A stretch of DNA of 64,000 nt from Watersipora subatra (lineage: Eukaryota; Bryozoa; Gymnolaemata; Cheilostomatida; Watersiporidae): assembly GCF_963576615.1 (NCBI RefSeq), contig NC_088716.1:3720001-3784000 (forward strand), given 5' to 3'. Below are positions 15,701-63,400 of the stretch, one piece after another. Under the pieces are notes generated by a model. It worked only from the letters and a program-made list of their open reading frames with translations, was not told the DNA's origin and did not search any database. The stretch's first letter is position 1, and the number at the start of each line of letters is the position of its first letter. The translations under genes and the position numbers were made by a program.

Positions 15701-15702
15701 TG

Positions 15703-15765
<63 letters not shown>

Positions 15766-15809
15766 TCACTACTACTACTACTATTACTACTACTATTACT
15801 ACTACTATG

Positions 15810-15846
<37 letters not shown>

Positions 15847-16886
15847 CAACTGCCACTACCACCACTACTAAAATGAAATTAAAACTATATTTATTTTAAG
15901 CTTTGAGGCTAAAGCAATGTTTGTTACAAGGCCTGAGGCTAAAGCTAAAACTATATCTATTGCAGGATCTATTACAAAATCGTATACAGTTGGCCAATGA
16001 CAACAGGACCTGCAATGCATGTGGCCTTGGGTGCACGATAGGTCTGTTTACAGGTGTAGTCTTATTAACTACTGGACTCATCTTCCTTCTAATTTATGGT
16101 GATGATGATCTCAACTCCATCAAGAACTCAAAGTTGTATAACCTTACAGACTGCGTTAGTGAAAATGAAACAGCATTGGCCCCTACTGACCTGGCAAATG
16201 AGATACTGGCCTATCTCATCACCTTGGATTGCCTTTCTTTTGCCTTCAACCTCATGAACATCGGCGTCCTTCTCTATGGTTTTTTGGTCTTGGTCACATT
16301 CCAGTCAAATTACAAAACATACAAGTTTACTGATACTTTTTACTGCCTTTCCTGTGGCGGATCTGTAATATTTTTGTCATTTTCCATTATTGCGAATTTA
16401 TCGACGGTGAAAGGAACGACAGTACGCGACTGGCATTACCTCACTAACACGACCTCCTCTATTGATGGCCGAGCGATTCCAATGAATACGACATTATTAG
16501 GGAATCCACAGTGCACTTCGCAGAGGGTGTCGGACTTTTCAAATTTTAATGTTGTTTATGAGATCTCACAATTGGTTCAGATTTTACTTTCGAGCTCTTT
16601 TGTGCTGCACGCGAGTCGTCTGCTCCCACATGGTAGGATGCAGGAAAACCATCACGTGAGCGAAGTGCTGCAGTTCCTCGGGGTCACCCATTTCTTCCTT
16701 TGGGCGATCAACAGTTTTATTTACAGTCCTCATGCTAAACAATTTTTCTACGTGGAAACCTTTTACTACGGGGCATCCGCGTTCAATGTCATAGCTCGTC
16801 TAACCTTTCCAATAATTGTTTTTTATCACTTTACAACTGCCTTACGGTGCTTAAAATTGTTTAACAAATATGAATCAAAACCGTAA
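6716..16886 (+). CDS. OTOP: Otopetrin-family proton channel (unit 1 copy)
   Basis: Otopetrins are 12-helix dimeric proton channels of the plasma or vesicle membrane. Exons: 6716-6734, 9192-9800, 10174-10338, 10744-11005, 15072-15263, 15345-15423, 15966-16886; phases all agree and the total is 2247 nt, 748 residues. The start MTFWNT is the first usable ATG, directly before a GTAAGT donor, but the frame is open a little further upstream. About six hydrophobic helices lie before and six after a charged linker rich in Gln/Glu (exons 4-6). Family hallmarks seen: EPYFAPFSLEFSLL (N-domain end), ITANMAIWLY, FFLWAINSFIYSP and FPIIVFYHFTTALRC (last helix). NLT, NET and NTT sequons fall in outer loops. 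Poly(A) signals at 17109 and 17138. The unit 2 paralogue has identical exon lengths. Selectivity and pH response cannot be read from sequence. Confidence 0.92.
6898..6958. repeat. Imperfect palindrome (unit 1)
   Basis: 'catagacctattaactgta' is followed after about 20 nt by 'tatagttaataggtctatg'. The same hairpin is at about 26426-26487. It lies in otopetrin intron 1. Confidence 0.7.
7068..7160. repeat. Interspersed ~95-bp repeat ('cattcctgaaatgg' family)
   Basis: The same sequence, ending 'ttcttattt(g/a)acagaacat', occurs at about 3090-3176, 22945-23036 and 26578-26672. A shorter piece is at about 2610. Two of these copies sit immediately before TIMM13-like exon 2. Confidence 0.75.
7258..7400. 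repeat. Nested palindromes in otopetrin intron 1
   Basis: A 34-nt perfect palindrome (7258-7291, arms 'ctcaatcataggttata') is followed by 'gcgacaattagctaattgtcgc' (about 7328-7349). A further inverted copy of 'ttctaaaataatattatttta' follows. Unit 2 retains only the right-hand part. Confidence 0.7.
7585..7662 (-). mobile_element. tRNA-derived SINE head (unit 1)
   Basis: On the - strand, 'gagcatagagcgctgaa' and 'ggttcaaatcc' stand in tRNA-like order; the latter is a perfect Pol III box B. The duplicate is at about 27010-27088. Confidence 0.5.
8278..9118. repeat. 17-bp minisatellite in otopetrin intron 1 (unit 1)
   Basis: Tandem 'gtggtatactactttag' units, alternating with longer 'ggtggtatttag' variants, about 840 bp. 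It ends only ~75 bp before the acceptor of exon 2 (9192). The unit 2 array (27643-27988) is less than half as long. Confidence 0.95.
10065..10149 (+). other. Exon-like segment not used in the in-frame model (unit 1)
   Basis: It is preceded by a good acceptor (ttgcag) and reads GINRRVEQENVQAYAYFY in the phase left by exon 2. Joining it to exon 3 breaks the frame, whereas exon 2 joins exon 3 directly in frame. In unit 2 the same segment is interrupted by a hairpin. It could be a relic or a rarely used cassette exon. Confidence 0.35.
11104..12291. mobile_element. Interrupted TIR element (unit 1)
   Basis: It corresponds to the left part of the uninterrupted element at 30241-31022, beginning 'tacagtcatacctctacat'. 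A non-LTR fragment splits it at 11126, and a second retroelement has replaced its right end. It lies in the otopetrin intron between exons 10744-11005 and 15072-15263. Confidence 0.7.
11127..11820 (+). mobile_element. 5'-truncated non-LTR retrotransposon (fragment A)
   Basis: The frame ending at 11608 matches the C-terminal tail of jockey/CR1-type ORF2 proteins: NSKISYCLDSWGNAP, then a Gln-Lys region, KLYQYKILLIAHSKFY and VPSQWNSLPIDL before the stop. A short 3' UTR with an (AC)n tail follows. Unit 2 keeps the empty site: 'ctctacat' runs straight into 'acgagtgccc', and 'acat' is repeated at both ends of the insertion. Endonuclease and RT domains are missing, so it is dead on arrival. Confidence 0.88.
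12292..13936 (-). pseudogene. Broken non-LTR retrotransposon with reverse transcriptase (fragment B)
   Basis: On the - strand the frame 13907-13149 is an RT core: NKSSGLDNISAKF, VIPLHKKG, NYRPISILP, FGFRRGR, FIDFSKAFDTIDH, GVPQGSV and the catalytic YADD. It continues in other frames through KFLGITIDKNLSW (about 13048-12851) and HSKLCYSIESWENA (12879-12532), ending near WNKLPASLK. At least one in-frame stop near 13148 and frameshifts near 13045 and 12870 inactivate it. The endonuclease and the start of RT are missing. Relative to unit 2, it replaced about 290 bp, including the right end of a TIR element. The clade is probably jockey/CR1-like; the exact family is not determinable here. Confidence 0.9.
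14770..14846 (+). mobile_element. tRNA-derived SINE head (unit 1)
   Basis: 'gagtggtgtagtgatagctc' carries a box-A-like core, and 'gggttcgatcccc' contains a perfect box B (GGTTCGATCC). The duplicate is at 31872-31948. It is directly upstream of otopetrin exon 5. Confidence 0.6.
15455..15870. repeat. (CTA)n-type trinucleotide repeat in otopetrin intron 6 (unit 1)
   Basis: About 400 bp of imperfect ctactactatta units, 32 nt after the exon 6 donor (15424). No stop occurs in the exon frame across most of the repeat. The unit 2 counterpart, 32595-32940, differs in its distal part. Confidence 0.95.
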
Positions 16887-26186: not shown

Positions 26187-29100
26187 ATGACTTTTTGGAA
26201 CACACGTAAGTTTCTTTCTACTCTAATTTATCTTTCTAATCTATTATAATTATTTATATTTATATGTATTATTATTCTGATCTATTATAATCTATTATAA
26301 TAAATAAATAATATTAACAATAATAATAGCAACTTAATAGACTATTATAGTGATAGAGTTAAACAGAGCTAAGAAATGCTATTTGATACTAAATGAATTG
26401 AACATAGAAAAGTCCATCTCTAAATGTCATAGACCTATTAACTGTACTTAATATATAGTTAATATAGTATAGTTAATAGGTCTATGCTAAATAATAATAA
26501 AATAAATAAAATACATGTAGGTCTAGCCCTATTCGTTCTGTTTGACTAAACTTACTCAACTGATGACTCAACAAATGTGCTGGAACATTCCTGAAATGGC
26601 CTTTCTATAAGTGAGTTGTCCCATCAACACTCTGCTGCAACCAACCGTTTTAATTCTTATTTGACAGAACATTTGATTTTTGTCATGATTAAAACCTTTA
26701 GAAGACAAAAAAGATTTATCTGCTTTAGTTCTAGCCCTGTTTAACCAAGCTATACAATTAGAGGCTCCTCAACTGAATCTTAGGCTATAGCTAATTGTCA
26801 CATTCTAAAATAATATTATTTTACCCTGACAGATTTATTTACCTTTTTTTTTAAAAATAACTTTTTATAGTTTTGGTAACTTGGAGCAAGACCAACCGCT
26901 GCTAGCACTTCCTCATAGGGAGTTAATATACATAAAGGCTAAGCAATTAATAACATGTTAGTCTTAATCAATGAGGGACCTAAAATGTTAATGATAGCCG
27001 GAAAACAAACTGGGTGTAACCAGGATTCGAACCATTGATTTTTTGTGAGCCGGAGACTTTATTTAGCGCTCTATGCTCACTGAGAACAAAACATACCAAC
27101 AGCTTGCATAGCTCCATCTGTCCAACCATGTACTAACCCTCTACCTATAATAGCAATGTAATATGATATATAATAATTCAATATAATATGTAATATATAA
27201 TACAGACCTCAAGTAAAAATGAAAGCAGACAAACAAGCAAGTAAATAAACAAGCAAGTGGACAGACAAACAAACTAACTAACATGTGAACAAGCAAGCAC
27301 ACAAACTTGCGGGCAAGCAAAAAACAAGGAAACAAAGAAACGAGTAAACAAACAAGCAACAGCTTTTGAGGGAAATTTACTGAATACTTCTTTACTTTAA
27401 TTCTGCTTTAGCTAGCTTATCCGTCCATTCAGTGTGTTGGCACTGTGCCAACTTTTAACTAAATTGATGTGATCTCACTCCTATGTGATGCTGAATCCCG
27501 ACTAATCATTAGTTTTGACCAATCGATAGGCAGAATAGTTTATTTATGGGAATTTATTGGTCAGGGGTACTTCTCGAGAGATTTATCACTAAAACATAAC
27601 TTGTGGCTAATAATTTGCCAAAGGTTTTTGTTTAAAATCTTTAGGTGGTATTTAGGTGGTATACCACTTTAGGTGGTATTTAGGTAGTATACTACTTTAG
27701 GTGGTATTTACGTGGTATACTACTTTAGGTGCTATTTAGGTGGTATACTACTCTAGGTGGTATTTAGGTGCTATACTATTTTAGATGGTATTCAAGTGGT
27801 ATACTACTTGAGGTAGTATTTAGGTGGTATACTACTTTAGGTGGTATTTAGGTGGTATACTACTTTAGGTGGTATACTACTTTAGGTCGTATACTACTTT
27901 AGGTGGTATACTACTTTAGGTGGTATACTACTTTAGGTGGTATACTACTTTAGGTGGTATTTAGGTGGTATACTACTTTAGGTGGTGCAGAGACTCAAAC
28001 AAAATCAATGAACTTACAGTTACATTTAATGGAATGCTGATTTTTCTGTATTGCAGTTACTGAAGTTCTCCTGGCCATCTTTACTGTTGGCCGCCACCGG
28101 CGTCAAGATAAGACTCCAGTACTGCAGGATGGTTTTATCACCGCAATCCTTCTTATCGTTTTCTTCTTTGGCCTTAGCGTAGCCATCTTGATGACCCAAT
28201 ATCTAAGTGCTGACAGGATAGACTACATACACAGTGAAACAAACTTTGGATTCATTTCTCCAATTTTTACAGAAATATTTTTAATTATTCTACTCTTGCC
28301 AGGATATGTGACAATCGTTTACGCTTTTAATAAAAAGGGACTGAGTTTTTCTGACATATTCAAGTATAAAGACATCGACATGTACGAGTTTGTTGAACAC
28401 TTAGCTCTTTACTTATTTGGAATCTGCAGTGTAGCCTTCGATATCATCTCTATCGTCATGGAGATTCGATGCAGTAATCGAAAGAAAATGGCGGACAACA
28501 TAGTTGATATTATATTCTACATCTTTAAACTGTTTTTTACGCTTTGCCAGTGTTTGTTTGTAAGACGATTCTACAGGTCACACTTCAATTCCAAGCCTTT
28601 GCTCCAAATATCTTTGGTCAGCATTATAACAGCAAACATGGCTATCTGGCTGTACACCGCAATGGGTTAGTAATCCGTTGGTATCTGGTCTACGTTTGAT
28701 AGCGATATGAAATCATTCATCCTAACATAAAAGCGTAGGTATCTCATTAAAAGTATATTATGCACAACATTTGAATTTTTTTCTTCCAGTTTTAGTTTCC
28801 TGTTTCAATGGTAACGCTTGTGTCACATGTGAATATGACAGCTAATCAGCTGAGTTATGCAGTGACTTATAAAACTAAACTGGGAGAAAAAGGTCGGGTA
28901 GCAGTAATAATAGTTTGAGTACATTTGTATATGGCAGCTGAGATCAACAGACGGGTTGAGCATGAAAATGTCCAAGCCTATGCCTACTTCTATTATAGAA
29001 GTAGGCATAGACTTGGAATAAATAAATACGACAATAAATACGACAATACGTCAATAAATAATCAATAAATAAATCAATACGACCATGTGGTATAAATAGC

Positions 29101-32100
29101 CTTATTGTTGCAGACGACGATGCCTTGGACTTATTCTCACACGTCTGGCTACCCTCCGATGCCTACCTAGAGAAAGCTGAACCCCAGCTGGAAGGTGGTT
29201 GTCCAACCGCTTACCGAGACCAGTACGAAGCCGTTGAGCCATACTTTGCTCCGTTCAGCCTTGAGTTCTCGCTACTTGGTAGGAGTTTTTTATAGTTTGT
29301 GGAATAAAATGTGCTGTTGTCTATCAATGGGATGTGTGCACATTGACTGCTAAAGCGTTGCCTGATTTCCTGCTGAATAAAGTGCTGCCTGATAGAGTGC
29401 TGATGGATGTAACGCCTTATGACAAGGTGCTTTGTGTAACTTAATCCACAATAGTTCTCAATAAGAAGCTTTGGTTGTGATTAGTTATCAAGAAGAAAAA
29501 TTGGTTGTTATTGGTTATCAGAAAGAATCATCGGTTGTTATTGATTATCAAGAAGAAACATTGGTTGTTATTGGTTATCAGAAAGAATCATCGGTTGTTA
29601 TTGGTTATCAAGAAGAAACATTGGTTGTTATTGGTTATCAGAAAGAATCACCGGTTGTTATTGGTTACCAAAAATAAACTTTGGTTGGGAATGATTATTA
29701 AAAAGAAATAATGACGGTGATTGATTTTCACCGTAAACTTCTTCACCTTTATTCTCACAAGAAACAACCTTGGGAATGCTTGATCATTTTATTTGTCGTT
29801 GTTCAGGGAAACATTAAAGTAATTCGTCGTTTATGTTTTAGATTACCAATACTTTTGTTGTTGAACAGTTTTTGAAAGAATCATATTTCTATGGGGCTCG
29901 ATGACTGACTTGGACTGTCCAAAAAACGTTGCGATTAGGAGAGTTCAGTTGAACAATGATGAGCTACACAGCCTTCAGAATGAGCTCAAACAGCAAAACG
30001 TGGAACAAACTCTGTACAGAGACGAGCTCTCTTCATCTTTCCTCCGTACCTGGTCATGTATAAGTGCTCTTTACAAGCCCCCTTTTCCAGGCCCAGCAAA
30101 TCAAGACAACTCAATGGCAAGATGCGATGAGTAGGTATTTATAATTTGCTCATTATAGGGATCGATTATCAGACCGTAACAAAAAGACAAGAGTGTTTGT
30201 TTTAAGAATAAACTTTCAATTTAACGACTGAAGAGTAATGCAGTACAGTCATACCTCTACATACGAGTGCCCAACATGCAAGAAACTCGAGATGCGGGAA
30301 GACTTTGTAGCGAGTTTCTTCCTTGATATATGAGTAATCTTTGAGCGTACGAGCCGATTCTCAATGGCCAGTATATGGCCAAGTATGCGCTTTCGTAAAC
30401 AGCATCACTCGGTCTATCTCGAATTACTTAGAAAAAGTTTTTCAAAGGCTGGCTAAAGATTATAAGGAGCGTGAGGCAAAAGCACAGAACCAGAAACAGT
30501 GCTAGAAAGTATGACGACAGAATTAAAGTAAGTTTAGTGAAAGATTAAACCTTAACTTTGAGTGTTTGTTTAGTAAACTAAATTCAATTAAGTTAAATTC
30601 AAAGTTTCTATTACGTAGCGTCACAAAAGTTTAGTGTACCAAATGGATTGCAATCAAGCCTCTCTCACACTGCCGTTATCCACAACGTCCATCTCAAAGT
30701 ATGTCACTACTGTATGGAGTTTTTACCATTCTAAGGTAAAACCCCCATACAGTACTGTATATGGTGATGTTACATTTTATTGCAGATCGTAACAACTAAA
30801 TAGGTATCTGTTACAATGTTAGCGTAGGTACTGAATTATAACAATTAAAAACATGTTTTTCTACCGCAATATCCTGTTCAGGTGGTTTTTCATAAAATGG
30901 CAACAGATTAATTTGTACCTAGGTATTTTAGATAGAAAATAGCGCCTTGAGATCTGAGTAACTTGATGAACGAGCTCAAACCTATAACGCATTAAGCTTG
31001 TATGTCAAGGTATGACTGTATATTTCTTTTTACTCATTTCACATGGCCTGATTTACTTTTGTTTGCACAGAACAAAAAAAATGAACAAGTCACAGACTAT
31101 AGAGCTACAAGTGAAATCATAATTTCATTTAAACCTCTTCTCACTAACATCATAGAATTCTTTGATGAACCATATAAAATTTCAGCATGTAACCAAACTA
31201 ATTTACAATATATAGCACTCAAAGATTGTCAAAACATGGCGCAATAAGTAAAAGTAAAAAATAGGTAAAAGTTAAATGTAAAAGTAATAACAACATGTAA
31301 GTAAGCTGAACCATGTCAAGTGTAAATTAGAATAAGTTGACTTGTGTTTTCATGTCTCTATGGCAACATAATAATAATACGTTTTTATATCACTTATAAA
31401 AAGAACAATGCGGGCAAACAGACCTATCATGCAGCCACAAATACTGCTGTTCCTGTTTTCATTGGCCAACTTTATACAGTTCTGCCCCAAACTCTCTTAA
31501 TATAATTTTTTTTATATAACTCAAGTGTTATATAAAACGTGTATACACTTATTTTTAGGGAATTTTTTATAACGAATTCATTTTACTGCTTTGCGTAACG
31601 ACCTGTAGTAATTTCTGTCAATATTTTGAGCTGTGAAATGAATTAAAGATGCGATCCAAGGTATTTTAACAGAAAAAATTTGAAAGTGTTGTTGTTTGAA
31701 CAAATAATTTTTGTAGGTATGTCAAGCTTCTATTGGGTTGTCACTGTAGAGTCAAACTTACACATATTAAATCAATTTGGATTTTATGGCTACTAGTTAG
31801 CTTACTAGTTCTGTGTGCTGTGAGAGATTTTCATGAACAATCAGTATGTCAATAATTTTTCCATGAAGTGGTAAGGTGAACGAGTGGTGTAGTGATAGCT
31901 CACTTGCCTTTGAATCTGATGCCCAGGGTTCGATCCCCATGCGAGTTTATATCTTTATCCTAATGCTCTTAATGTGGCTTTGGACAAACATGTCTTATTA
32001 TAGTAAGGATTGTTGTAACTTGCCCCAAATTATTACTGTTACTCAGCACACTAAACAGCTATTACTGTCACTCAGAAGCAGGTACTTGTTGCAAGTGGAA

Positions 32101-33953
32101 TTTGGTTATGGAGCCAAACAGTTGCTTGAGTGCCGTTTGTAAGCCACTCATATTCTTGCCTACATCTTCACAGATACATGCAGAAATTGGAGAAACATAT
32201 CAACACAGTAGAAGTGACATTAGATGAAAATCACTATGCACGAATGCGTTTGCAGAAACTTATGCAAATCAATATAGTCTACAAAAGGCTACCAGAAATC
32301 AACAACTTTCCGGCGCGCCTCCGGGTCTCCTGCGAAGCCCAGCGGTACAGACTCGAGCTTAACAGGTAATTATTGCTCTACTGTTTGATAAGGCCAGCTG
32401 ATTGTCACCAGGTCTCCATCAAGTCATTTCAGTCACTTTTGTACTGTATAAAACTGGTAGGATGTATTTTGTATCCAACAGAGAAAGTATACAGGCAGAA
32501 ATAAATGGTAAACTCGCAAGCTTAAGGGAAGCTTCTCACCGAATTGATAATGAAAGACAAGTATGTTTTCATCTATATTTTCTATTAGAAGGAAATGCAG
32601 TACTACTACTAATACCACCAGTACTACTATTATTGCTACTACTGCCACTATTGCTACTGCTAACACTACTATTATTACTGCTATTATTGTTACTACTACT
32701 ATTACCGCTACTATTACTGTTACTACTCCTAATGTTACTGCTACTACTACTACTACTACTACTACTACTATTATTATTAATACTACTACCACTGCTACTA
32801 TTACTACGGCTATTACTACTATTATTACTACTACTATTATTACTAATACCACTACTTTTACTACTACTACTACTACTACTACTACTATTACTACTATTAT
32901 TACTACTACTACTCCAACTGCCACTACCAACACTACTAAAATGAAATTAAAACTATATTTATTTTAAGCTTTGAGGCTAAAGCAATGTTTGTTACAAGGC
33001 CTGAGACTAAAATCAAACTATATCTATTGCAGGATCTATTACAAAATCGTATACAGTTGGCCAATGACAACAGGAACTGCAATGCATGTGGCCTTGGGTG
33101 CACGATAGGTCTGTTTACAGGTGTGGTCTTATTAACTACTGGACTCATCTTCCTTCTAATCTATGGTGATGATGATCTCAACTCCATCAAGAACTCAAAT
33201 TTGTATAACCTTACAGACTGCGTTAGTGAAAATGAAACAGCATTGGCCCCTACTGACCTGGCAAATGAGATACTGGCCTATCTCATCACCTTGGATTGCC
33301 TTTCTTTTGCCTTCAACCTCATGAACATCGGCGTCCTTCTCTATGGTTTTTTGGTCTTGGTCACATTCCAGTCAAATTACAAAAGCTTCAAGTTTACTGA
33401 TACTTTTTACTGCCTTTCCTGTGGCGGATCTGTAATATTTTTGTCATTTTCCATCATCGCGAATTTATCGACGGTGAAAGGAACGACAGTACGCGACTGG
33501 CATTACCTCACTAACACGACCTCCTCTATTGATGGCCGAGCGATTCCAATGAATACGACATTGTTAGGGAATCCTCAGTGCACTTCGCAGAGGGTGTCAG
33601 ACTTTTCAAATTTTAATGTTGTTTATGAGATCTCACAATTGGTTCAGATTTTACTTTCGGGCTCTTTTGTGCTGCATGCGAGTCGTCTGCTCCCACATGG
33701 TAGGATGCAGGAAAACCATCACGTGAGCGAAGTGCTGCAGTTCCTCGGGGTCACCCATTTCTTCCTCTGGGCGATCAACAGTTTTATTTACAGTCCTCAT
33801 GCTAAACAATTTTTCTACGTGGAAACCTTTTACTACGGGGCATCCGCGTTCAATGTCATAGCTCGTCTAACCTTTCCAATAATTGTTTTTTATCACTTTA
33901 CAACTGCCTTACGGTGCTTAAAATTGTTTAACAAATATGAATCAAAACCGTAA
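26187..33953 (+). CDS. OTOP: Otopetrin-family proton channel (unit 2 copy)
   Basis: Exons: 26187-26205, 28057-28665, 29114-29278, 29869-30130, 32174-32365, 32482-32560, 33033-33953; total 2247 nt, same exon lengths and phases as the unit 1 gene, no stop in frame. The last exon differs at only a few residues (for example YKTYKF to YKSFKF and LLSSSF to LLSGSF). Differences are commoner in exons 2-4 (Asn for Ser near SSKN; several in the Gln/Glu-rich linker). All otopetrin hallmark segments are kept: PYFAPFSLEFSLL, ITANMAIWLY, FFLWAINSFIYSP, FPIIVFYHF. The poly(A) signal is at 34176-34181. Two intact neighbouring paralogues suggest recent duplication with both copies retained; separate expression cannot be judged from sequence. 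Confidence 0.92.
26578..26672. repeat. 'cattcctgaaatgg' interspersed repeat (unit 2)
   Basis: Counterpart of 7068-7160. Confidence 0.7.
27010..27090 (-). mobile_element. tRNA-derived SINE head (unit 2)
   Basis: Counterpart of 7585-7662; box B on the - strand reads 'ggttcgaatcc'. Confidence 0.5.
27643..27988. repeat. 17-bp minisatellite in otopetrin intron 1 (unit 2)
   Basis: The same 'gtggtatactactttag' unit as 8278-9118, but about 345 bp long. It ends about 70 bp before exon 2. Confidence 0.92.
28973..29017. repeat. Unit 2-specific hairpin inside the exon-like segment
   Basis: 'caagcctatgcctacttcta' is followed at once by its inverted copy 'tagaagtaggcatagactt'. An (aataaata/cgac) simple repeat comes next. 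Unit 1 has only the left arm, so the right arm arose after duplication. Confidence 0.8.
29462..29700. repeat. 30-bp repeat expanded in unit 2
   Basis: Alternating 'ggttgttattggttatca' + 'agaagaaacatt' / 'gaaagaatcatc' units, about seven. Unit 1 (about 10495-10590) has only about three. It lies in the intron after exon 3. Confidence 0.85.
30241..31022. mobile_element. TIR element, uninterrupted copy (unit 2)
   Basis: The left end 'tacagtcatacctctacata' and the right end 'tatgtcaaggtatgactgta' are inverted copies of each other with two mismatches. The element is ~780 bp and has no transposase frame, so it is a non-autonomous (MITE-like) DNA element. It lies in an otopetrin intron. Confidence 0.7.
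31872..31948 (+). mobile_element. tRNA-derived SINE head (unit 2)
   Basis: Counterpart of 14770-14846; box B 'ggttcgatccc'. Confidence 0.6.
32595..32940. repeat. (CTA)n-type trinucleotide repeat in otopetrin intron 6 (unit 2)
   Basis: Counterpart of 15455-15870. The first ~150 bp are almost identical; the remainder diverges in unit order. Confidence 0.95.
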
Positions 33954-51632: not shown

Positions 51633-53036
51633 TAGAGCCATAGAAATACGGTGCATGACTTACTTTAATTAACTTGGACTAATATAGTTTAAATTGCTTC
51701 AATGTTTAAAATTACTTTCATTTTTTTCAGTTCTATTGTTAATTTCTATCAGTGTTTTAGTTTATTTACAAAGCTTTTAGAACTTTCAGAGGTTTTATTT
51801 TGCATTTTTCGGCAATATTTCAGATTTTTGATTGTAAAGAATTCAAGAAATATTCATCAGACTTAATGTTTTTCCAATGCATTGTGAAAAATTAATTCTG
51901 ATAACATTGAGACTATAATTATATTACAAATAAAACTTGTTTTCACGACAAACATAAAACGATCTTAAACAAAACTCTCTAAAAAGGCTCTCTTCATGGA
52001 ATTAGGTCTATCTAGACTCTAGAGCGTTTCCTTTCATTTGAGTTGTAAATTTCCTTCATGTCGGTAAATTGTGACAAAACACTTCAAAGCTTTTTTTTAT
52101 TAAATTAGGTTAAGGTAAAAAGAAGCTATGCGAAGACAAGTCATCCAGATCATTTAGATCTTTATCAGATAGTCAGCTAATCAGATAGTCAGCTACACAA
52201 CTACAGGTATAATGACTGTAATTTCCGGTACTCCTGATGCACAAGCATTCGAAACGATTACAAATCATCCCTTGATAAAAGTAATTTTGACTTAGATAAA
52301 GTGATCAATCAGTTTGACAACATCAATTGACTTCTCTATTGACACATTTCTTTTAACTTGCAACGCAATGAAGCAACGCAATGTCGCAACGCAATGTCGC
52401 AACGCAATGTCGCAAGTTTAACTTGATCATAGTAAAATAATGAAAGCACTTGGTTTTATGTCTACGACTAAGAAAATTTCTAAGAAAAGTTAGTAACAGA
52501 TTAGGTCAGTGTTCAAGGTCACTCCCAATGTCATTTGGCTCACCCCAAAAAAGGCCTGAGAGAGTGCATGAAACAATATATGCATTTTAAACAGTGTTGT
52601 AATCATTTTTTTTGAAATAATTTTTTTGACGTAGAACCTACAAACTAAATCTTTTTCATACCCTTTCACAGCTTAAATATAATACGTACTCTTTTGTTGC
52701 TGGTTCAAAGACGGTTATAATATCGATGAATTTGTTTCTTATCTACACTTTCAACTTCCATTAGAAAGCTTTTAAACTATCTAATTGTTATTGTTTTTGT
52801 TCTCTACCTGCAAGTAGAGGCTTTTTCTCTATTTACAATATTTCATCATTTTTGTTAAGCAAGTTCTTCCAACTAGTTGGCTAGTATGGTGACACATTGT
52901 CTTTTCTCTATTTAGCTCTTATTTTATCTGGTTCTCCTAGAATTTCCGCTATTACTGGTTTTGAAAAGTTGAAGTAAATTCTGCTCAACAAGAATATACA
53001 ACTCCGAACTCAAGAGCGAGTTCACGCAAACTCGAT

Positions 53037-53590
53037 GAGTTGATGAACAGACTCGTGGGCGAGCTGATAAACAGACTCGGAGGCGAGGCGATAAACAGAC
53101 TCGTGGGTGAGCCGATAAACAAACTCGTGGGTGAGCTGATAAACAGACTCGTGGGTGAGCCGATAAACAGACTCGATGGTGAGCCAATAAACAGACTCGA
53201 TGGTGAGCCGATAAACAGACTCGCGAGTGAGCCGATAAACAGACTCGCGGGTGAGCCGATAAACAGACTCGCGGGTGAGCCGATAAACAGACTCGAGAGT
53301 GAGCCGATAAACAGACTCGCGGGTGAGCCGATAAACAGACTCGAGAGTGAGCCGATAAACAGACTCGAGAGTGAGTCGATAGACAGACTCGTGGGTGAGC
53401 CAGTAAACAGACTCGTGAGTGAGCCGATAAACAGACTTGAGAGTGAGCCGATAAACAGACTCGATGGTGAGCCGATAAACAGACTCGATAGTGAGTCGAT
53501 AAACAGACTCGATGGTGAGCCGATAAATAGACTCGCGGGTGAGCCGATAAACAGACTCAAGAGTGAGCCGATAAGCAGACTCGATGGTGT
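53037..53590. repeat. 24-bp minisatellite, open on both strands
   Basis: About 23 units of 'gtgagccgataaacagactc' + 'g(n)gg'. With a 24-nt period both strands stay open: the + strand as repeated E-P-I-N-R-L-x-x and the - strand as F-I-G-S-P-x-S-L. Variation is concentrated at one or two positions of the unit. No start context, promoter or splice evidence favours a gene. Confidence 0.9.
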
Positions 53591-54240
53591 CTTTTCTCAG
53601 CTATTACACCCCAGCAAGCCAAGCACAATAATTCTTGATGTTCGGTCAAGAGCACTTATAGTGAAAGCAGCTATGATACGCTGGCTAATATCACAATGCT
53701 AAAGTCAGAAACAGTGACAAAAATTTTATACCCTATTTACTTTTGAAAATCAAGCAGAGCTTATTGTAAAGAACGCAGTATCTTTAATGGTGTTATATCT
53801 CTCAGTACCAAGCAGTAACACACCAGCAATGATGAAACTGACAGGTTATATAGCAATCCCCGGGAAAAATCTACAATTGATTGGCTGCACAGTAATTAGG
53901 TCAACCAATTCCACAATAACATATTTCGAATACAAAAACGATAACATTTGTCACTAACTAATCACATAATACGAGTATTAATAATTTTTTTGTGTTTGTA
54001 TAGTAACATACAAATCTTAGAACAATATGGTAATAAATGGTTAACATAAAAAAATTGCTAGTATAACACATACATATACACTACATTGGACAAGTGTTAA
54101 GCGTGCGCCTTATACATGACTATTCAAATTTGTCTGAATTGCGACGAATGTAATATAGTTCCATTGAGTCAGCAATTTGAAGCTGCCGAATTATAGGCTT
54201 AGAAAAAACGTCATCAACTCTTTTACGCATGCTGACTGTC

Positions 54241-54248
54241 TATAAATA
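54241..54248 (+). promoter_or_regulatory. TATA box of the zinc-finger/stem-loop unit
   Basis: TATAAATA, 48 nt before the first ATG (54289). A start site near 54270 would give a very short 5' UTR. Confidence 0.6.
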
Positions 54249-54292
54249 CGAGTACACACTGATTCACAGTTCATTCGCTTTTACAAGCATGA

Positions 54293-54691
54293 AGCACTCG
54301 AGCACTTTTTTGCGATTTTTCTTGCAACAATGAGCGTGACCTACAGAGGCACGCTCGTGTACACAGACACCGCTGCTACTACTGTGATGAGGTGTTCACC
54401 ACTCAGCTTCTCCTGCAAGCGCATGTCTCTGCTGAGCACCAAAGAACACAGTCTACCCAGACTGAACCCCAGATACCGAGGGTGTGTTCACCCCGTCGCC
54501 AACACCATCACCACGGGCAACGCTACACCAGGCCACGGCAGGACCGACGGCCGTACTGGAGGCCAGCCCGTGATGCTTGCCCTACTCCATGGCATGAAGT
54601 GGAGTCCAAGATCGGTCCATCGGTAGACTCCATCGGGGATGATAGTGATCCTCTCGGGCTACTGGACTCACAAGACAAAATCGATTTCTGA
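54293..54691 (+). CDS. Intronless C2H2 zinc-finger reading frame with a histone-type 3' end
   Basis: No family was recognised. The frame is open from 54293 to the TGA at 54689-54691. It contains one good C2H2 finger, HRCYYCDEVFTTQLLLQAHV...H (C-x2-C-x12-H-x4-H with the usual Phe and Leu). Before it stands an incomplete finger, CDFSCNNERDLQRHARVH. A Gln/Thr/Arg-rich middle follows, then an acidic tail (SIGDDSDPLGLLDSQDK). It is much richer in GC than its neighbours. The first ATG (54289) opens a different 14-codon frame whose TGA overlaps the next ATG at 54330 (third frame, ends 54626); the next in-frame ATG, 54392, would cut the finger. A one-base change in the T run at 54306-54311 would connect 54289 to the finger frame. 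It may thus be a pseudogene, an assembly error, or use another start. TATA box and stem-loop fit a replication-dependent histone-like unit. Confidence 0.5.
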   Translation, partial: STRALFCDFSCNNERDLQRHARVHRHRCYYCDEVFTTQLLLQAHVSAEHQRTQSTQTEPQIPRVCSPRRQHHHHGQRYTRPRQDRRPYWRPARDACPTPWHEVESKIGPSVDSIGDDSDPLGLLDSQDKIDF

Positions 54692-54717
54692 GTGCCAGTA
54701 GTCCCACCAACCACCTC

Positions 54718-54737
54718 GGCCCTTCTCAGGGCCACCA
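54718..54737 (+). promoter_or_regulatory. Histone-mRNA-type 3' stem-loop
   Basis: GGCCCTTCTCAGGGCC then ACCA. A perfect 6-bp stem with a four-base UCUC loop fits the metazoan histone stem-loop consensus GGYYYUUHUHARRRCC at every position, with the usual ACCA flank after it. It begins 26 nt after the stop codon at 54691, the normal distance in histone genes. Thirteen bases further is 'taagag', which may be a weak U7-binding (HDE-like) purine element. In animals this signal is bound by SLBP and replaces the poly(A) tail. Confidence 0.8.
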
Positions 54738-54876
54738 TTTCCATTTTAAGAGTTTTGTTCTGCGTCGAAAATGGTGGAAAATCAGTGTCGTACTTATCAT
54801 CCACTTTTTTATTACAAAATGAATATCTTTTCTTTTTTTCATACCCAACCGAGTGAAGAAACTTGTGAAGTTTAAA

Positions 54877-54882
54877 ATAAAC
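54877..54882 (+). terminator. Candidate poly(A) signal downstream of the stem-loop
   Basis: AATAAA about 140 nt after the stem-loop. Histone genes often keep such a backup signal, but in AT-rich DNA it could be chance. Confidence 0.3.
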
Positions 54883-57800
54883 TTTACAAACGAACCGCTT
54901 GACGGTATATAATTACGGTTTGCTGATTTACTAAAAATAATAAATGGTTAAAACGCATCTGCACTCAACTGTGATTTCTTGATACCTTGCATAACAAAAT
55001 TTCGTTAGAGAGTATATTGCACAACTTGGCAAATTCTAAATAAAAGCTTGTACTGTTGCAAACTATTTCTATGTATAGCTCTTTTCTGTGATATAGTCAT
55101 CCAGTGTAGACTTAGTTGCATTGACTGCACACATTGTCAAGGCTGTTAAAGCAGACTCTTATTTGATACATATTCATTAGGTTTTCATGCTTAGATCCTG
55201 TCGTCCCAACTCAACATTTTTTTACATATTTTCTTACTCAACCAATTTTCTTTGCATTTTGATGTAGTTGCTTAAGATAATTTGTGTTGTTTACTGTTTT
55301 GCTTTAGTTGTTTTCCTGCTCACAACCTGTGTACTAAGCTTTCTGCTTATGTAGTAGATAGCCTAAGTGACAGACTTGATTGTTTGCTAGATCATAAAAA
55401 CTAAATATTCAGTAAAATGAATGCACACACAATCACACATATCTAACAATAAAAACTATTAACCAAAATATTACGACCGCCGTTACATTGACAGAGAAAC
55501 TTTTACCAAGCTCGTATTGCCACATTTGTAATGAATGCAACATGTCCAAACAATACTGATTTTGGGTTTTAGTGCTTCATTAGATACGACGATTAAAAAT
55601 CTGAAACCATTCGCTAAAAACATTGTTCCATAACTTAGTTAACATGGTAAAGACAACAGCACATACAATTATCAAATTTATTGACTAAATGTATGGAAGA
55701 ACGATCCTCGATTCAACTTTAATACAGCTTTCATAACAAGGATCTAAATTTCAATCAACGTATTCGTCCTTGCGAACCAGAAATAGGCGTGTATGAAGCC
55801 TTTGCGCAAACCTAATCAAACAAACATACGATACTTAACGTTTTTTAAATTTAACAGAGTAAAATAACTAAGGCTACAGATATTCTAAACATTGTTTTCT
55901 GACGACTCAAGCTGGCACGCTTTCTTAGTTACTTTCTAGTCGCTAGTAAATTACCTTTGTAGATCCTATTATTTAAAAAACCCTTAAAACGTGACAAACA
56001 TTTTCAATTGGGTAAATGTTTTCTTTTTATTTTTTTGTTTTTTTTGGGCATATTTTCAAAGGTATAATTACTGCACTCTTTTTCATTTCGCTTGATCTCG
56101 GTTGTTGGAAGCAAGTTCTGCTTGATGTATGAAAGCATTGAGTGGAAGCATCTTAATTATCTGATTTTTTGGGCAATAACTAACTGGCCTAAAGTAGTTT
56201 AAATTGAACTTTAAATCTTTAATTAATTACTTATCACAAAAAAGGTCTGAGAGAATGTATGTATTTAAAATTACATTTTTACTGTTATTGTAAAATGAAT
56301 AGCTTAGTGTTGGTGATTGATAGAACAGGATTATCCTACCTATTACTCTACACTGAACCTGGAATGGCGTAGTTTATTTATGGTTACTTTTATTAGTTAT
56401 TGCTAATAGCTCCAAAATAGATTCTGATCTAGATTATTCACTGTTTTGATCAATTTATCTTGTTTATTGATGTAACCAAAATCTTACAGTTGAACTTTCC
56501 AGATGCTGCAATTTAGAACTACAGAACCAAAGGAGAATTCTTAAAGTAAAGAATATCAAGGGTTCTTCCCAAGACCTTACGTTTATTTTAGAACAAAAAT
56601 ATATGATAAGTTATACCTCTAGACCAAATTGTATGGAAAAGTAATGTCTGAGACTTAAAATAGAGTCACCCTCTTGTTCTCTCGGTAATCGACTCTTTGG
56701 CTTGTTCTGCTGACATGTCTGTCTGCCATGATGCAGCTGTATTGAGGAAGTGAAGAGTGAATATTCGTTCTTTTATATTGACTTAAGTGTTGAAGTGCCG
56801 GAGTGAAACTATATTTTTTAAGTTTTCAATTGTAAATCTTGTAGTTTTAGAGGGTTTTGGTTACTTTTTGTTGTTATTCGTTCACAGAGATTTTATCATA
56901 TGTAATCAGTGATTATAATCCTTGGTCTGGTATAGATTGATACCAGATGCGGATCTTGATATACCGCAAGATGTTATAGTCTGGGTGTTGTCACTGATAG
57001 AGGGTCTGGTTAGGCGTAGATCTTAGATTTCCCTCTTTAGGAGTTAGACCATGGTTTCAGTCTGTGCTATAATTAGATTAAAAATCTTTTGGTGGTTATC
57101 TGACATTTTCTTTTGCTAAGTTCTCAATGTTCTAGTCGTAGAATGTGGTTCGAAATCTGAAGTTGGCTTGTAATCTTCCCATCTCTGAAATTTGTAGGTG
57201 CTGTAACTGTGGAATCTGCAATGAAAATTGCAATGGTGATGTAACTTGTTATTCCCTTTATTTTCTATCTGTACAGATCTTTTATCTGATATCAGATATA
57301 ACAGCCTTTTCACTTTTATATCTTACTGCATCATCTATACCTCGTATTCGAGATAATGTGTATTTTACAATGAAGTTGAAAATTTCTTAATAACTCAACA
57401 GTCGACTAAACTTACATATAAACCTTTTAATGGATCAACAACAATGGACGGTATTTGATTCATGGTTTTTACAAGCAGTTAGTTTTTAGCCATTGCTCAG
57501 TAGTTTGTTGCGGCATTGTATATGAATAATTTGAAGAATGTCCAAATGCATCTATGAGCCTATGTATAAAACTATACACTAGTTTTGGTACATCTATAAA
57601 TTATCATCTATTTGGCATGCATTCAAAATATTATGCAAAAATCTTTCAATGATATCTTTTAGCAATTTTTGTTTTCATGTATGTGTGGACATTCATATTT
57701 AAACTTCCAGTTCACTGACTCAATGCAATATATGCACGTGGTGTATATTTCGATACAATGCGGAATTCGGTAAAAATATCAAACTATTACAAGTTATTGA

Positions 57801-58001: not shown

Positions 58002-61000
58002 ATGAAAAAGCTAATTTATTCGGTTTTGTGCCTTGGACTCTTTGCCTTTCTCCTATTATATTTGCGGAGGAAAAGGGAACACGCTGTGACAACTCCCGAT
58101 CAATATGAACAGTCTTGCAGTAGTTCATTTCAACATATTACCTCACGTAAGTCAACTCATTGTGTAGTCGTATTGTCACAACTTAGCCTGTTGTCACGGC
58201 ATAGAGAGATACCTTATATCTAAAAAGAGAACAACTGCTGAGGCCTAGCCACATGTACTGTGATGACAAATCTATCGAAAATGTTTTACTAATTTTTTTC
58301 ATATGATAATATATGTCGTGGCTATAAGTAATGTTTTTAAGTGTGCTGCCGTATGACAACTAATAAGGCAGGTGTAACAGTGGTAGAACTACTGGTTCTT
58401 CTGATATGTTCTTCTGATATAAAACTTAACATGTTAATTATGGATTTCCTGCATTTCTTTAAATAATAAATAATAATAATAACAAATGCAACCAGTTTTT
58501 GTGAACATGAAAATAATGACTCTAGATACCCTGATGTTCTCCAGATAAGAAACACAACCAGCTTTATGGAAACTCACGATAAACATTTTTTGCCATATCA
58601 ATTGTTTCTAAATACACTGTTTGCATAATGATAACAGATAAAACTGTTGAGAGTTATCATCTCTTTAAAGAATAGAAATTTGCTGACAGATTTTTTAATT
58701 GCTTCGGTGGATTACCCAAATACACTATCTAAACAGAGTCAAGCGGATCAACCAATTAAAATCGAAAATTGTTCAGTAATATTGTCACCTCTGTCCCACT
58801 GTCTCTGTCTGTTTGGGCAGGCCTTGCAGAAAGTGTAGCCATCATTTATGACTATTCCACTATTACTCCCACCAAGCTGAAGGAAGATGTTAACATTCTT
58901 CGAACATCTCTCAATCAACCCCTTATTTCCAAGCTCATCCTTGTCGAAAACAACTGTGAGAATAAAGAAACATCTGCAGCCGCCGTAGATCTGGCGAGAC
59001 AAGATTCCAGAACCAAAGTTATTGTGATCGAGGCTGAACAGACAGTGTCTAGAGGCCGAAGTAGAATTGTTGCCATGGAGGGTGTGACAGCACCTTTTGT
59101 CCTATTTGTCTCCTCTGGCAGCCTACCTGACTCAGAAATGTTTCTTGGTAAGTGTGTTTTGCTGGCCAATGGTATCTTGTCTAACTCGCACCACCTGCTA
59201 CTCGTGCCATTCAATAGAGATTTACCTGCACATGATGTCATCTGCTGGACATAGTATTTGTTAAGAATGTTACATGGATGTAAGCTGATGCTGTGTCAGA
59301 TGCTAGTCATTCTTACTACTCACTTTGATGAATAGTTTCTTTTTAAACGAATATAATATCTAACATATGCAAAAATGTGTAAAAGCAATTTATAATATAG
59401 TGTAATGTATCAGACTCTCTGTAAAAAGTACTAGGTGCAGTAGACGCTCCTATAACATATACCTCCTATAACGTATACCTCCTATAACGTATACCTCCTA
59501 TAACGTATACCTCCTATAACGTATACCTCCTATAACATACCTCCTATAACGTATACCTCCTATAACGTATACCTCCTATAACGTATACCTCCTATAACGT
59601 ATACCTCCTATAACGTATACCTCCTATAACATAAAACTCCTATAACATAAAACTCCTATAACATATACCTCCTATAACATTTACCTCCTATAACGTATAC
59701 CTCCTATAACGTATACCTCCTATAACGTATACCTCCTATAACGTATACCTCCTATAACGTATACCTCCTATAACGTATACCTCCTATAACGTATACCTCC
59801 TATAACGTATACCTCCTATAACGTATACCTCCTATAACGTATACCTCCTATAACGTATACCTCCTATCACGTACATATACCTCCTATAACGTACATATAC
59901 CTCCTATAACGTATACCTCCTATAACGTATGCCTCCTATAACGTATACCTCCTATAACGTACATATACCTCCTATAACGTACATATACCTCCTATAACGT
60001 ACATATACCTCCTATAACGTACATATACCTCCTATAACGTACATATACCTCCTATAACGTAAACCTCCTATAACGTATACCTCCTATAACGTATACCTCC
60101 TATAACGTATACCTCTTATAACGTATACCTCCTATAACGTATGCCTCCTATAACGTATACCTCCTATAACGTATACCTCCTATAACGTAAACCTCCTATA
60201 ACGTATACCTCCTATAACGTATACCTCCTATAACGTATACCTCCTATAACGTATACCTCATATAACGTATACCTCCTAAAACGTATACCTCCTATAACGT
60301 ATACCTCCTATAACGTATACCTCCTATAACGTATACCTCCTATAACGTATACCTCCTATAACGTTTACCTCCTATAACGTATACCTCCTATAACGTATAC
60401 CTCCTATAACGTATACCTCCTATAACGTATACCTCCTATAACGTATACCTCCTATAACGTATACCTCCTATAACGTATACCTCCTATAACGTATACCTCC
60501 TATAACGTATACCTCCTATAACGTACATATACCTCCTATAACGTATGCCTCCTATAACGTATACCTCCTATAACGTACATATACCTCCTATAACGTACAT
60601 ATACCTTCTATAACGTACATATACCTCCTATAACGTATGCTTCCTATAACGTATACCTCCTATAACGTACATATACCTCCTATAACGTACATATACCTCC
60701 TATAACGTACATATACCTCCTATAACGTACATATACCTCCTATAACGTATACCTCCTATAACGTACATATACCTCCTATAACGTATACCTCCTATAACGT
60801 ACATATACCTCCTATAACGTATACCTCCTATAATGTACTTCCTATAACATATACCTCCTATAACGTATACCTCCTATAACGTATACCTCCTATAACGTAT
60901 ACCTCCTAAAACGTATACCTCCTATAACGTATACCTCCTATAACGTATACCTCCTATAACGTATACCTCCTATAACGTATACCTCCTATAACGTATACCT

Positions 61001-63400
61001 CCTATAACGTATACCTCCTATAACGTATACCTCCTATAACGTATACCTCCTATAACGTATACCTCCTATAACGTATACCTCCTATAACGTATACCTCCTA
61101 TAACGTATACCTCCTATAACATATACCTCCTATAACATATACCTCCTATAACATATACTTCCTATAACATATACCTCCTATAACATATACCTCCTATAAC
61201 GTATACCTCCTTTACAAAATTCCACATTTTACAACATTTTTTAAGCTTAACTTATATATGAAATATGCATATTTATGAGTTTTTTACGATAAGTTGGTAG
61301 TCTTTACATTATGAATACAGCGAACAGTGTTAGTTAGCAATAAACACCTGAGATTACTAGGTTGAACTGGAATAAATTGAGAGAAGATTACGCCAAACAT
61401 ATGGATTAATTGATTAATTTTATGCAAAATCCTAAAATAGGCATACTCAAGAAAACTGACATACTCAAGAACTTCTTTAGGAATAAAATCATAGCCTCTG
61501 TTTTTAGTTTTTATCATGTGTCTGATTTAACTTTTCAATTATAATTTAGGTTTTGAGTTTATTGCAACTGGAGGACAAAATTTTTTTGACAAAACTGATG
61601 ACGCAGTTCTAAGACGAGGTGGTGAATGTAAAACTATCACTGATCAACTTGTGTGTTACAGAGAATATGCTGGAGACCATGAAAGGTGGTAGTCTAATAG
61701 TCGTTCCTTCTAAAAGAGGTGCTTCCGCAAGTTATGACACAGTGTCCTGGTCCCTGAGGCTAAGGCGACAGGTCATCCCTCAACCCACTCATGAAAGCCA
61801 AGGTCTTCACCTACCACTTATAGACAATGAAATATTCCTTATCAGATCAGATATGTATGAGGTAAGACGTTACTTCCTCATTTACCTCAGATTGGTTGTA
61901 TCTAATGTGTCATCAAGAGACAGGTTGCTGGGTGGCTGATATCTAGTGTGTCATCAAGAGACAGGTTGCTGGGTGGCTGATATCTAGTGTGTCATCAAGA
62001 GACAGGTTGCTGGGTGGCTGATATCTAATGTGTCATCAAGAGACAGGTTGCTGGGTGGCTGATATCTAGTGTGTCATCAAGAGACAGGTTGCTGGGTGGC
62101 TGATATCTAGTGTGTCATCAAGAGACAGGTTGCTGGGTGGCTGATATCTAGTGTGTCATCAAGAGACATGTTGTGGATAATATATTCAGAGGTGAACTAC
62201 TCTTCGCTAATTGCGCTATAACCCTTAACTTATATGTTGTTTAAACTGGATATTTAATAACCCATAGAGAGAAATCACGAGAGATATTTGTGGTACTGTT
62301 TGTACCACAAATACCTGGCAGGCTTGTTTGTAGTGCAACTAACAAACAAATTGGGGCTACATGAGACTTCTTCGCTTCTTAGGTATAGAGATATATAGAG
62401 GTTATTATCTCTATTATAGAGGTATAGAGATATATAGAGGGTATTATCTCTATTAAAGAGGTATAGAGATATATAGAGGGTATTATCTCTATTATAGAGG
62501 TATAGAGATATATAGAGGGTATTATCTCTATAGAGATATAAAGAGGGTATTATCTCTATAGAGGTATAGAAATAATACTAGTAAACACGAACTACTGCTT
62601 ACCTTAATCTCACTTTCAATGTTGTCTGTAGTCTCAACACATGCTATATGTGCTAGTGACCTAGCAGTCTGTGATAAAATATAAACGATTGTCAGGTGTA
62701 ATAACTCTATTTACAATTATTCCGAAATGTAGTGAGGTGGTTGGAAAGCGCAGATGGCAGCGCGCCTGGCTGCTGGGCCAAATGTCGGAGAAACGCGATA
62801 CAAAAAATCAAAATCCATTTGCTTCAAAATTGCGATGCAATCTTTTTCCCAACATCGTTGAGAGAAAGATTGGGTGTTGCTTCGGACAAACAAATGGACA
62901 GACAAACGGACAGACAAATGGACAGACAAACGGACAGACAAATGGACAGACAAATGGACAGACATGGCTCTTATAGCAGAGTTTTATCATTATTTATTAT
63001 TATTATTCATTTATTACAAAACTTTTAAAAATGGTCCTAATATAGGAACTGCCATGTCACCCACTACATTAAAAATTCATAACAATATTCTGTCAATGCT
63101 TTCTCACTCCTCCGTTCTCTGAAACATTTGCAGGCCGTCGGAGGTTACGATAGTTTCTTTTACAAAAGAGACGGGGCTGATGGTTTAGCACTGAGTCTGG
63201 CAGTCTGGCTGTGTGGAGGTACAGTAGTACGCTGTGAGTGTGCATTCTCTCAACCGCTGCCTGCTGCCGAGGCATCAAAAGAGCTGGTTACTTACCTTCA
63301 GCATGCCAAATATATTCAACACGTGTTTGGTGGGTCTCTCAAGCAACAGATAACCTATCCTGGAATTGAGCTTTATAAACCTTCTTCTTATGATCTACAT
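58002..63400 (+). CDS. GalNAc-transferase-like type II membrane protein, 5' part
   Basis: Exons 58002-58146, 58821-59147, 61550-61618, 61662-61861 and 63134-63400 join in consistent phase; the gene continues beyond the window. MKKLIYSVLCLGLFAFLLLY is a signal anchor followed by RRKRE, typical of Golgi enzymes. Exon 2 has a GT-A-like start (ESVAIIYDYSTITP, ILRTSLNQP, LILVENNCEN). Exon 5 has GGYDSFFYKRDGADGLALS followed by AVWLCGG, resembling the 'GGxN-E-S-R-W-CGG' Gal/GalNAc-T region of polypeptide GalNAc-transferases (GT27). The usual DxH metal motif is not evident: the matching segment reads APFVLFVSSGSLPDSEMF. The second intron is filled by a 16-bp minisatellite, the third is only 43 nt. 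Identity at superfamily level is likely; substrate unknown. Confidence 0.68.
59436..61212. repeat. ~1.8-kb, 16-bp minisatellite in the GalNAc-T-like gene
   Basis: About 100 units of 'cctcctataacgtata', with a 20-bp variant (extra 'cata') clustered at about 59875-60070 and 60525-60800. The left edge 'gcagtagacgctcctataac' matches the terminus of the TIR family seen at 24284 and 41214, so the array begins inside an element end. It fills most of intron 2. Confidence 0.95.
61895..62172. repeat. 41-bp minisatellite
   Basis: Six to seven nearly identical copies of 'gtgtcatcaagagacaggtt' + 'gctgggtggctgatatctagt', starting about 35 bp after the exon 4 donor (61862). Confidence 0.93.
62285..62315. 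repeat. Hairpin
   Basis: 'atttgtggtac' / 'gtaccacaaat' with a 5-nt loop. Confidence 0.8.
62378..62575. repeat. ~39-bp AT-rich repeat
   Basis: 'ggtatagagatatatagagg' + 'gtattatctctattata' in about five copies. Confidence 0.85.
62882..62965. repeat. 12-bp repeat
   Basis: 'ggacagacaaa(t/c)' repeated seven times, in the last intron of the GalNAc-T-like gene present here. Confidence 0.92.

Follow-up and report, generated by a model that had tools for sequence, protein, structure and literature searches.

Metazoan histone mRNAs are described as ending in a stem-loop in place of a poly(A) tail (PMC2781718, PMC12775136). The unit analyzed here resembles the 3′ end of such replication-dependent histone mRNAs in its stem, its loop, its ACCA flank and its distance from the stop codon, and it also matches the downstream element found in the histone genes of its own genome. 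In contrast to histone genes, it encodes a C2H2 protein inside a long terminal repeat (LTR), and its use as a processing signal is putative. The element to which this LTR belongs shares with Ty3/gypsy elements the gag knuckle, the order RT-RNase H-integrase, the purine tract, the primer site, the LTRs and the 4-bp duplications, but it differs from them by its long LTR (1.5-2.0 kb), a minisatellite and a complete antisense gene. HBZ of HTLV-1 is a protein gene transcribed antisense from a retroviral LTR region. As far as this layout is concerned, the gene described here is similar, whereas it encodes a two-finger protein, is located wholly inside one LTR and has a histone-type 3′ signal. Tc1/mariner transposons of the same genome, like the LTR unit, have a histone-type stem-loop and a downstream element past the stop codon of their protein, but they are DNA transposons and have the loop in transposase sense, inside the terminal inverted repeats. 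Among the open-licence papers listed by exact-wording searches, which cover part of the literature, we recognised none on transposons that have a histone 3′ end, which is weak evidence of absence. As set out below, the features of this locus make it likely that both LTRs of a Ty3/gypsy element, and hence its solo LTRs, carry a small antisense gene with a histone-type mRNA ending.

The window unit lies in a solo Ty3/gypsy LTR

The window is a 64-kb stretch (C9:3720001-3784000) of the Watersipora subatra genome, whose 784-Mb assembly was searched. A first-pass annotation of the window had described a TATA box, a C2H2 frame and, 26 nt past its stop codon, a stem-loop with ACCA as a non-histone zinc-finger unit. 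All of these features are present at the sites given there (Table 1), but they are situated on the antisense strand of a multicopy LTR. A DNA search with positions 54200-54900 as query gave 345 candidates, of which 40 were scored, so that there are at least 40 copies; the other 39 scored copies were 91-93% identical to the query. Among the 40 were five same-strand pairs with a spacing of 6.4-6.6 kb.

Table 1. Positions of the features of the LTR and its antisense gene in the 64-kb window.
Feature	Position	Strand	Remarks
Solo LTR, Ty3/gypsy retrotransposon	52970..54816	- (retro-sense)	starts TGTAATA, ends ACTTCA
24-bp minisatellite, 22.8 units	53042..53589		Tandem Repeats Finder; inside LTR
Candidate retro-sense TATA box TATATAA	53846..53852	-	motif only; putative function
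Antisense TATA box TATAAATA	54241..54248	+	starts 54241
ATG of antisense gene	54289..54291	+	in the window out of register with finger frame
C2H2 frame, stop TGA 54689-54691	54293..54691	+	two fingers, Arg/Pro-rich middle, acidic end
Histone-type stem-loop with ACCA flank	54718..54737	+	RF00032 33.3 bits; native-histone model 38.6 bits
Downstream element AGAGTTTTGTTC of histone type, candidate site for U7 snRNA pairing	54749..54760	+	motif match

To map the edges of the repeat, 5.5 kb around the unit were compared by Blast with 29 further copies, with at most five pieces each. The left edge was found at 52954-52970 in 25 of the 29 copies, whereas all 29 have their right edge at 54813-54824, and past 54816 the flanks differ between copies. 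In 23 of 30 LTRs the two ends could be identified, and 16 of these LTRs had no inner-edge marks. Twelve of these 16 LTRs are flanked by an exact 4-bp target duplication, three by a duplication with one mismatch and one by none; the window LTR, whose own 4-bp flanks agree at three of four positions, is among the three with a mismatch. Not all scored insertions are independent, since L010 and L023 have the left flank in common. Matching outer flanks were also present in two complete elements (L022/L028 and L015/L031). The interior between the paired LTRs of other copies comprises gag, which has a zinc knuckle, and pol, in which RT, RNase H and integrase are found in this order. At the inner edges, there is a purine-rich tract ahead of the right-hand LTR and a shared primer-site-like sequence after the left-hand one. 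In these paired-LTR copies, gag-pol and the C2H2 frame are encoded on opposite strands. Thus, the repeat has the TG/CA ends and target site duplications of Ty3/gypsy elements, and the arrangement of two LTRs around RT-RNase H-integrase is found in other copies, the window containing a single LTR. The dispersed edges, the 4-bp duplications and gag-pol between the pairs identify the window unit as a solo LTR in minus orientation, with the C2H2 unit on its antisense strand. Belonging to a dispersed LTR, the unit cannot be a single host gene. A sense-strand LTR transcript ending at the stem-loop is likewise ruled out, as gag-pol is located on the opposite strand.

The length of the LTR ranges from 1501 to 2016 bp, a spread which is attributed mainly to the 24-bp minisatellite array. 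The retro-sense and the antisense TATA motif are about 390 bp apart and directed away from each other, and AATAAA motifs are present on both LTR strands. The two LTRs of a pair differed at 7 of 1233, 18 of 1234 and 54 of 1230 sites, indicating that the insertions range from recent to older, and the mean divergence of the LTR copies was 3.9% (n = 28). As a side observation, a second gypsy interior (L044), whose pol is 61% identical to that of L041 over 724 residues, is flanked by LTRs of the same type, and L044 with L038 (C1:62577482-62586078) shows a pattern as if an LTR had been exchanged between lineages.

The antisense strand of the LTR carries a small zinc-finger gene

The TATA box, the C2H2 frame and the stem-loop are all located within the LTR and antisense to gag-pol. 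CTATAAATA of the antisense TATA box is intact in all 30 copies analyzed. A frame open from the ATG and comprising 134 or 136 amino acids is present in 20 of the 30 copies, and the order in intact copies is fingers, Arg/Pro-rich middle and acidic end. In the other ten copies, which include that of the window, the protein frame is broken. The window ATG opens another frame with a stop after 14 codons, and the finger frame is uninterrupted but lacks an in-frame ATG; the window copy has intact signals and a broken protein frame. The break in this copy had been missed in the first-pass annotation. A programmed frameshift linking the ATG to the finger frame was discarded as an explanation, since in other copies the frame continues from the ATG without a shift.

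The zinc-finger family PF00096 was detected in two stretches of the window frame with an E-value of 8.3e-07, above the cut-off, and in the intact L022 protein with an E-value of 1.2e-04, below the cut-off. The finger spacing C-x2-C-x12-H-x3/4-H was found on reading the sequence by eye. Zinc fingers lead the Pfam matches of the window frame and the intact L022 protein and no histone family is among them, so that the histone fold protein of a replication-dependent histone gene is missing from this unit. A comparison of the intact protein with PDB sequences gave six weak matches (best E-value 0.036), mostly to CTCF fingers, and the window frame folded alone and without alignment reached a mean pLDDT of 46.9, which is no usable model.

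Sequence variants were compared in 18 intact copies, i.e., the 20 open ones minus one LTR of each of two pairs. Variants shared between copies comprised 6 nonsynonymous and 11 synonymous changes and private variants 50 and 21, respectively, at a neutral expectation of about 2.5:1 (2.51), so that the private variants look neutral and the shared ones favor synonymous changes. The contrast between shared and private variants had a Fisher p of 0.011. It was absent from four of the five other frames; one antisense frame did show it (p = 0.018), yet this frame contains three stops. Both p-values are rough because of the common descent of the copies. In the 20 open copies, pN/pS was 0.37 for the whole frame, 0.23 for the first 50 codons containing the fingers and 0.61 for the downstream part. 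This is the pattern expected if the gene was under selection during multiplication of the element and decays after insertion.

The 3′ signal matches the histone 3′ ends of the host

In the window, the stem-loop GGCCCTTCTCAGGGCC occupies positions 54718-54733 and ACCA follows immediately at 54734-54737, the stem-loop starting 26 nt past the TGA of the C2H2 frame. The downstream element AGAGTTTTGTTC is located 11 nt past ACCA. Chance occurrence of the downstream-element motif is given by 157 of 18,278 32-nt stretches of the window that fit it. The unit has the 6-bp stem, the 4-nt loop consensus and the ACCA flank of the RF00032 3′ end, and a search of 701 nt matched RF00032 over 46 of 46 positions with an E-value of 9.2e-08. 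A default Rfam scan of the 64-kb window gave zero entries because the score of 33.3 bits is 0.7 bits under the cut-off of 34 bits. Such scores are common in the genome's own histone loci, where 21 of 37 RF00032 rows were under 34 bits (range 27.6-36.7 bits; the loci overlap and some sites are counted more than once).

For comparison with the host, histone genes were collected by a genome search with PF00125, which gave 25 matches that by eye form five clusters in addition to scattered ones. The histone loci L067-L085 contained 20 distinct stem-loops located 19-37 nt past the stop codon, and in 19 of these 20 native ends AGAGTTGTTC or a near form of it is found 7-10 nt past ACCA, compared with the 11-nt spacer of the window unit. 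The 20 native ends were used for a covariance model, which was run on 71 sources with 292,611 bases; left out of this run were L009, L028, L039, L043, L067-L071 and L073-L084, mostly the histone loci behind the model. The window 3′ end scored 38.6 bits (E-value 9.8e-08), and the next-best match in the window reached at most 12.4 bits. All 28 other LTR loci searched scored 22.5-41.0 bits, the LTR piece L042 40.5 bits and all 28 Tc1-type loci described below 33.3-56.3 bits. Outside the window, these LTR and Tc1-type loci, L042 and the second gene described below, no match exceeded 13.9 bits, and eight further PF00125 loci (L072 and L085-L091) had scores of at most 13.6 bits.

These results bear on a chance match. 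For the bare 16-mer, 0.69 matches with at most one mismatch are expected in the 64 kb; two were present, and 13 of 100 shuffled sequences reached two as well, so that the stem-loop consensus by itself is only mildly surprising. With its flank and downstream element and scored by the histone model of its own genome, the 3′ signal is far beyond chance, with an E-value in the order of 1e-7 in 293 kb, and it recurs in register past a conserved frame, both in numerous LTR copies and in the diverged second gene described below, which makes coincidence hardly credible as an explanation. The histone-type signal that the first-pass annotation had assigned to a non-histone C2H2 unit is therefore borne out by both models. 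Its view that the signal exceeds chance was right as well, and the covariance-model match that it had suggested as a check was obtained in the 701-nt search, at a score under the Rfam cut-off.

The stem-loop is intact in 27 of 30 LTR copies when C or T is permitted at one loop position, and the stem is damaged in the other three. The downstream-element motif fits 25 of 29 LTR stem-loops in L009-L038 (L009 is the copy of the window), most LTR copies having AAGGG where the native histone genes mostly have AAGAG or GAGAG. As the copies are young, conservation of a 20-nt motif among them is weak evidence when taken alone.

A second, diverged zinc-finger gene has the same layout

Locus L024 comprises a copy of this LTR and a second frame (L024:697-1128) of 143 residues, whose predicted protein shows 37% identity to the first antisense protein (E-value 3e-18). 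This second gene, which is known from this one locus, has zinc fingers and a basic middle, an ATAAATA motif upstream, and a stop codon followed after 24 nt by a stem-loop scoring 39.7 bits with the native-histone model. Since the layout of stop codon and stem-loop is kept at 37% identity, it is the best evidence that the stem-loop and the gene belong together. In the region L024:697-1199, the second gene is situated on the strand opposite to the adjoining LTR gene.

The similarity of the signals could also be a relic, if an ancestral LTR had picked up either a histone 3′ end or a host gene with a histone tail and the signal had since been carried along unused, any transcript being polyadenylated elsewhere. 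In favor of this are the AATAAA motifs on both LTR strands and the low divergence of the LTRs, at which inherited sequence stays alike without function. We consider this explanation unlikely because the diverged second gene keeps both the stem-loop and the downstream element at a similar distance, because the protein was spared by the shared variants, and because the signal is found in four Tc1-type 3′ regions. Alternatively, the stem-loop might act in the retro-sense strand, e.g., as an LTR structure of the retrotransposon RNA, its likeness to histone ends being secondary. It starts at retro-sense LTR position 84, in a stretch that in L042 is also open in pol direction, but the loop, ACCA and the downstream element are asymmetric, the models match the antisense direction only, and in both of the diverged genes the signals follow the antisense stop codon, so that this possibility appears very remote.

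Tc1/mariner-type transposons carry the same type of signal

In a genome search with RF00032, the best 75 of 137,633 candidates were scored, 74 of them above the cut-off. The 28 of these 75 loci that were inspected (L001-L008 and L047-L066) were all Tc1/mariner-type copies with no histone gene among them, and by position none of the 75 best-scored matches falls in the PF00125 histone clusters. This is a pitfall for annotation: of the 75 top Rfam matches to histone 3′ ends in this genome, the 28 inspected mark transposons and not histones. According to their 3′ regions, ten of the 28 loci belong to type A, 14 to type B, three to type C and one to type D; types C and D were defined by loci of this same set, type C resting on one pair of repeats and type D on one locus with a partial transposase. 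Transposase similarity was detected in 20 of the 28 loci. Types A and B have the Pfam domains Tc3_2 and DDE_3, and their transposases are 63% identical. The stem-loop is mostly located past the transposase stop codon, at a distance of 24 nt in type A (L003) and 53 nt in type B (L050), and terminal inverted repeats lie on either side of it in several copies of types A and B and in L062, a type C copy. The downstream-element pattern was present in 10 of 14 type B and two of four type C or D loci and in none of the ten type A loci, which were missed because of a wider gap. Internally deleted copies of Tc1/mariner type still keep the stem-loop, and the RF00032 scores of the Tc1-type loci (33.5-42.9 bits) are mostly above those of the genome's own histone genes.

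As types A, B and D are related, the signal was likely inherited from one ancestor within Tc1, and the gypsy antisense gene is a case separate from Tc1. On balance, these comparisons favor the view that two unrelated transposon classes took over the pathway for histone mRNA 3′ ends, Tc1/mariner elements for their transposase mRNA and the Ty3/gypsy element for its antisense gene. The presence of the signal in two unrelated classes could also mean that many host mRNAs are processed by the histone 3′ pathway and that the transposons use an ordinary signal of the lineage; scoring of the best 75 of 137,633 candidates leaves room for other host genes. That the inspected 28 of those 75 were all of transposon type and that the window contains no second match above 12.4 bits makes this rather improbable.

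Proposed expression of the antisense gene

From the arrangement of these motifs we infer the following course of expression for the LTR gene. The antisense gene's own TATA box would direct the synthesis of an RNA that is about 475 nt long, has a very short leader and encodes a basic two-finger C2H2 protein. Its end would most likely be formed like that of a histone mRNA, with SLBP binding to the stem-loop and the U7 snRNP pairing with the AGAGTTNGTTC-like element. Cleavage just past ACCA would then give an S-phase-linked mRNA without poly(A). The two-finger protein probably binds nucleic acid and serves the element, e.g., by regulating its own LTR.

If both transposon classes use the signal in this way, their expression would be coupled to S phase, or to the early embryo with its abundance of histones, and freed from poly(A)-based control, and histone genes would no longer be the only users of the pathway. 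Mobile elements with a complete, host-matched signal would show that the histone pathway can be hijacked and would offer natural reporters for it. They would also point to a simple means by which transposons could synchronize their expression with DNA replication.

Other features of the window

Two regions, 9323-16886 and 28188-33953, contain pairs of open frames that by eye are near-identical and are located about 17-19 kb apart, which suggests a large tandem duplication. An open frame on the minus strand at 13149-13907 looks reverse-transcriptase-like by eye and probably belongs to a non-LTR element. Finally, a 16-bp unit repeated in tandem about 106 times is located at 59447-61211.
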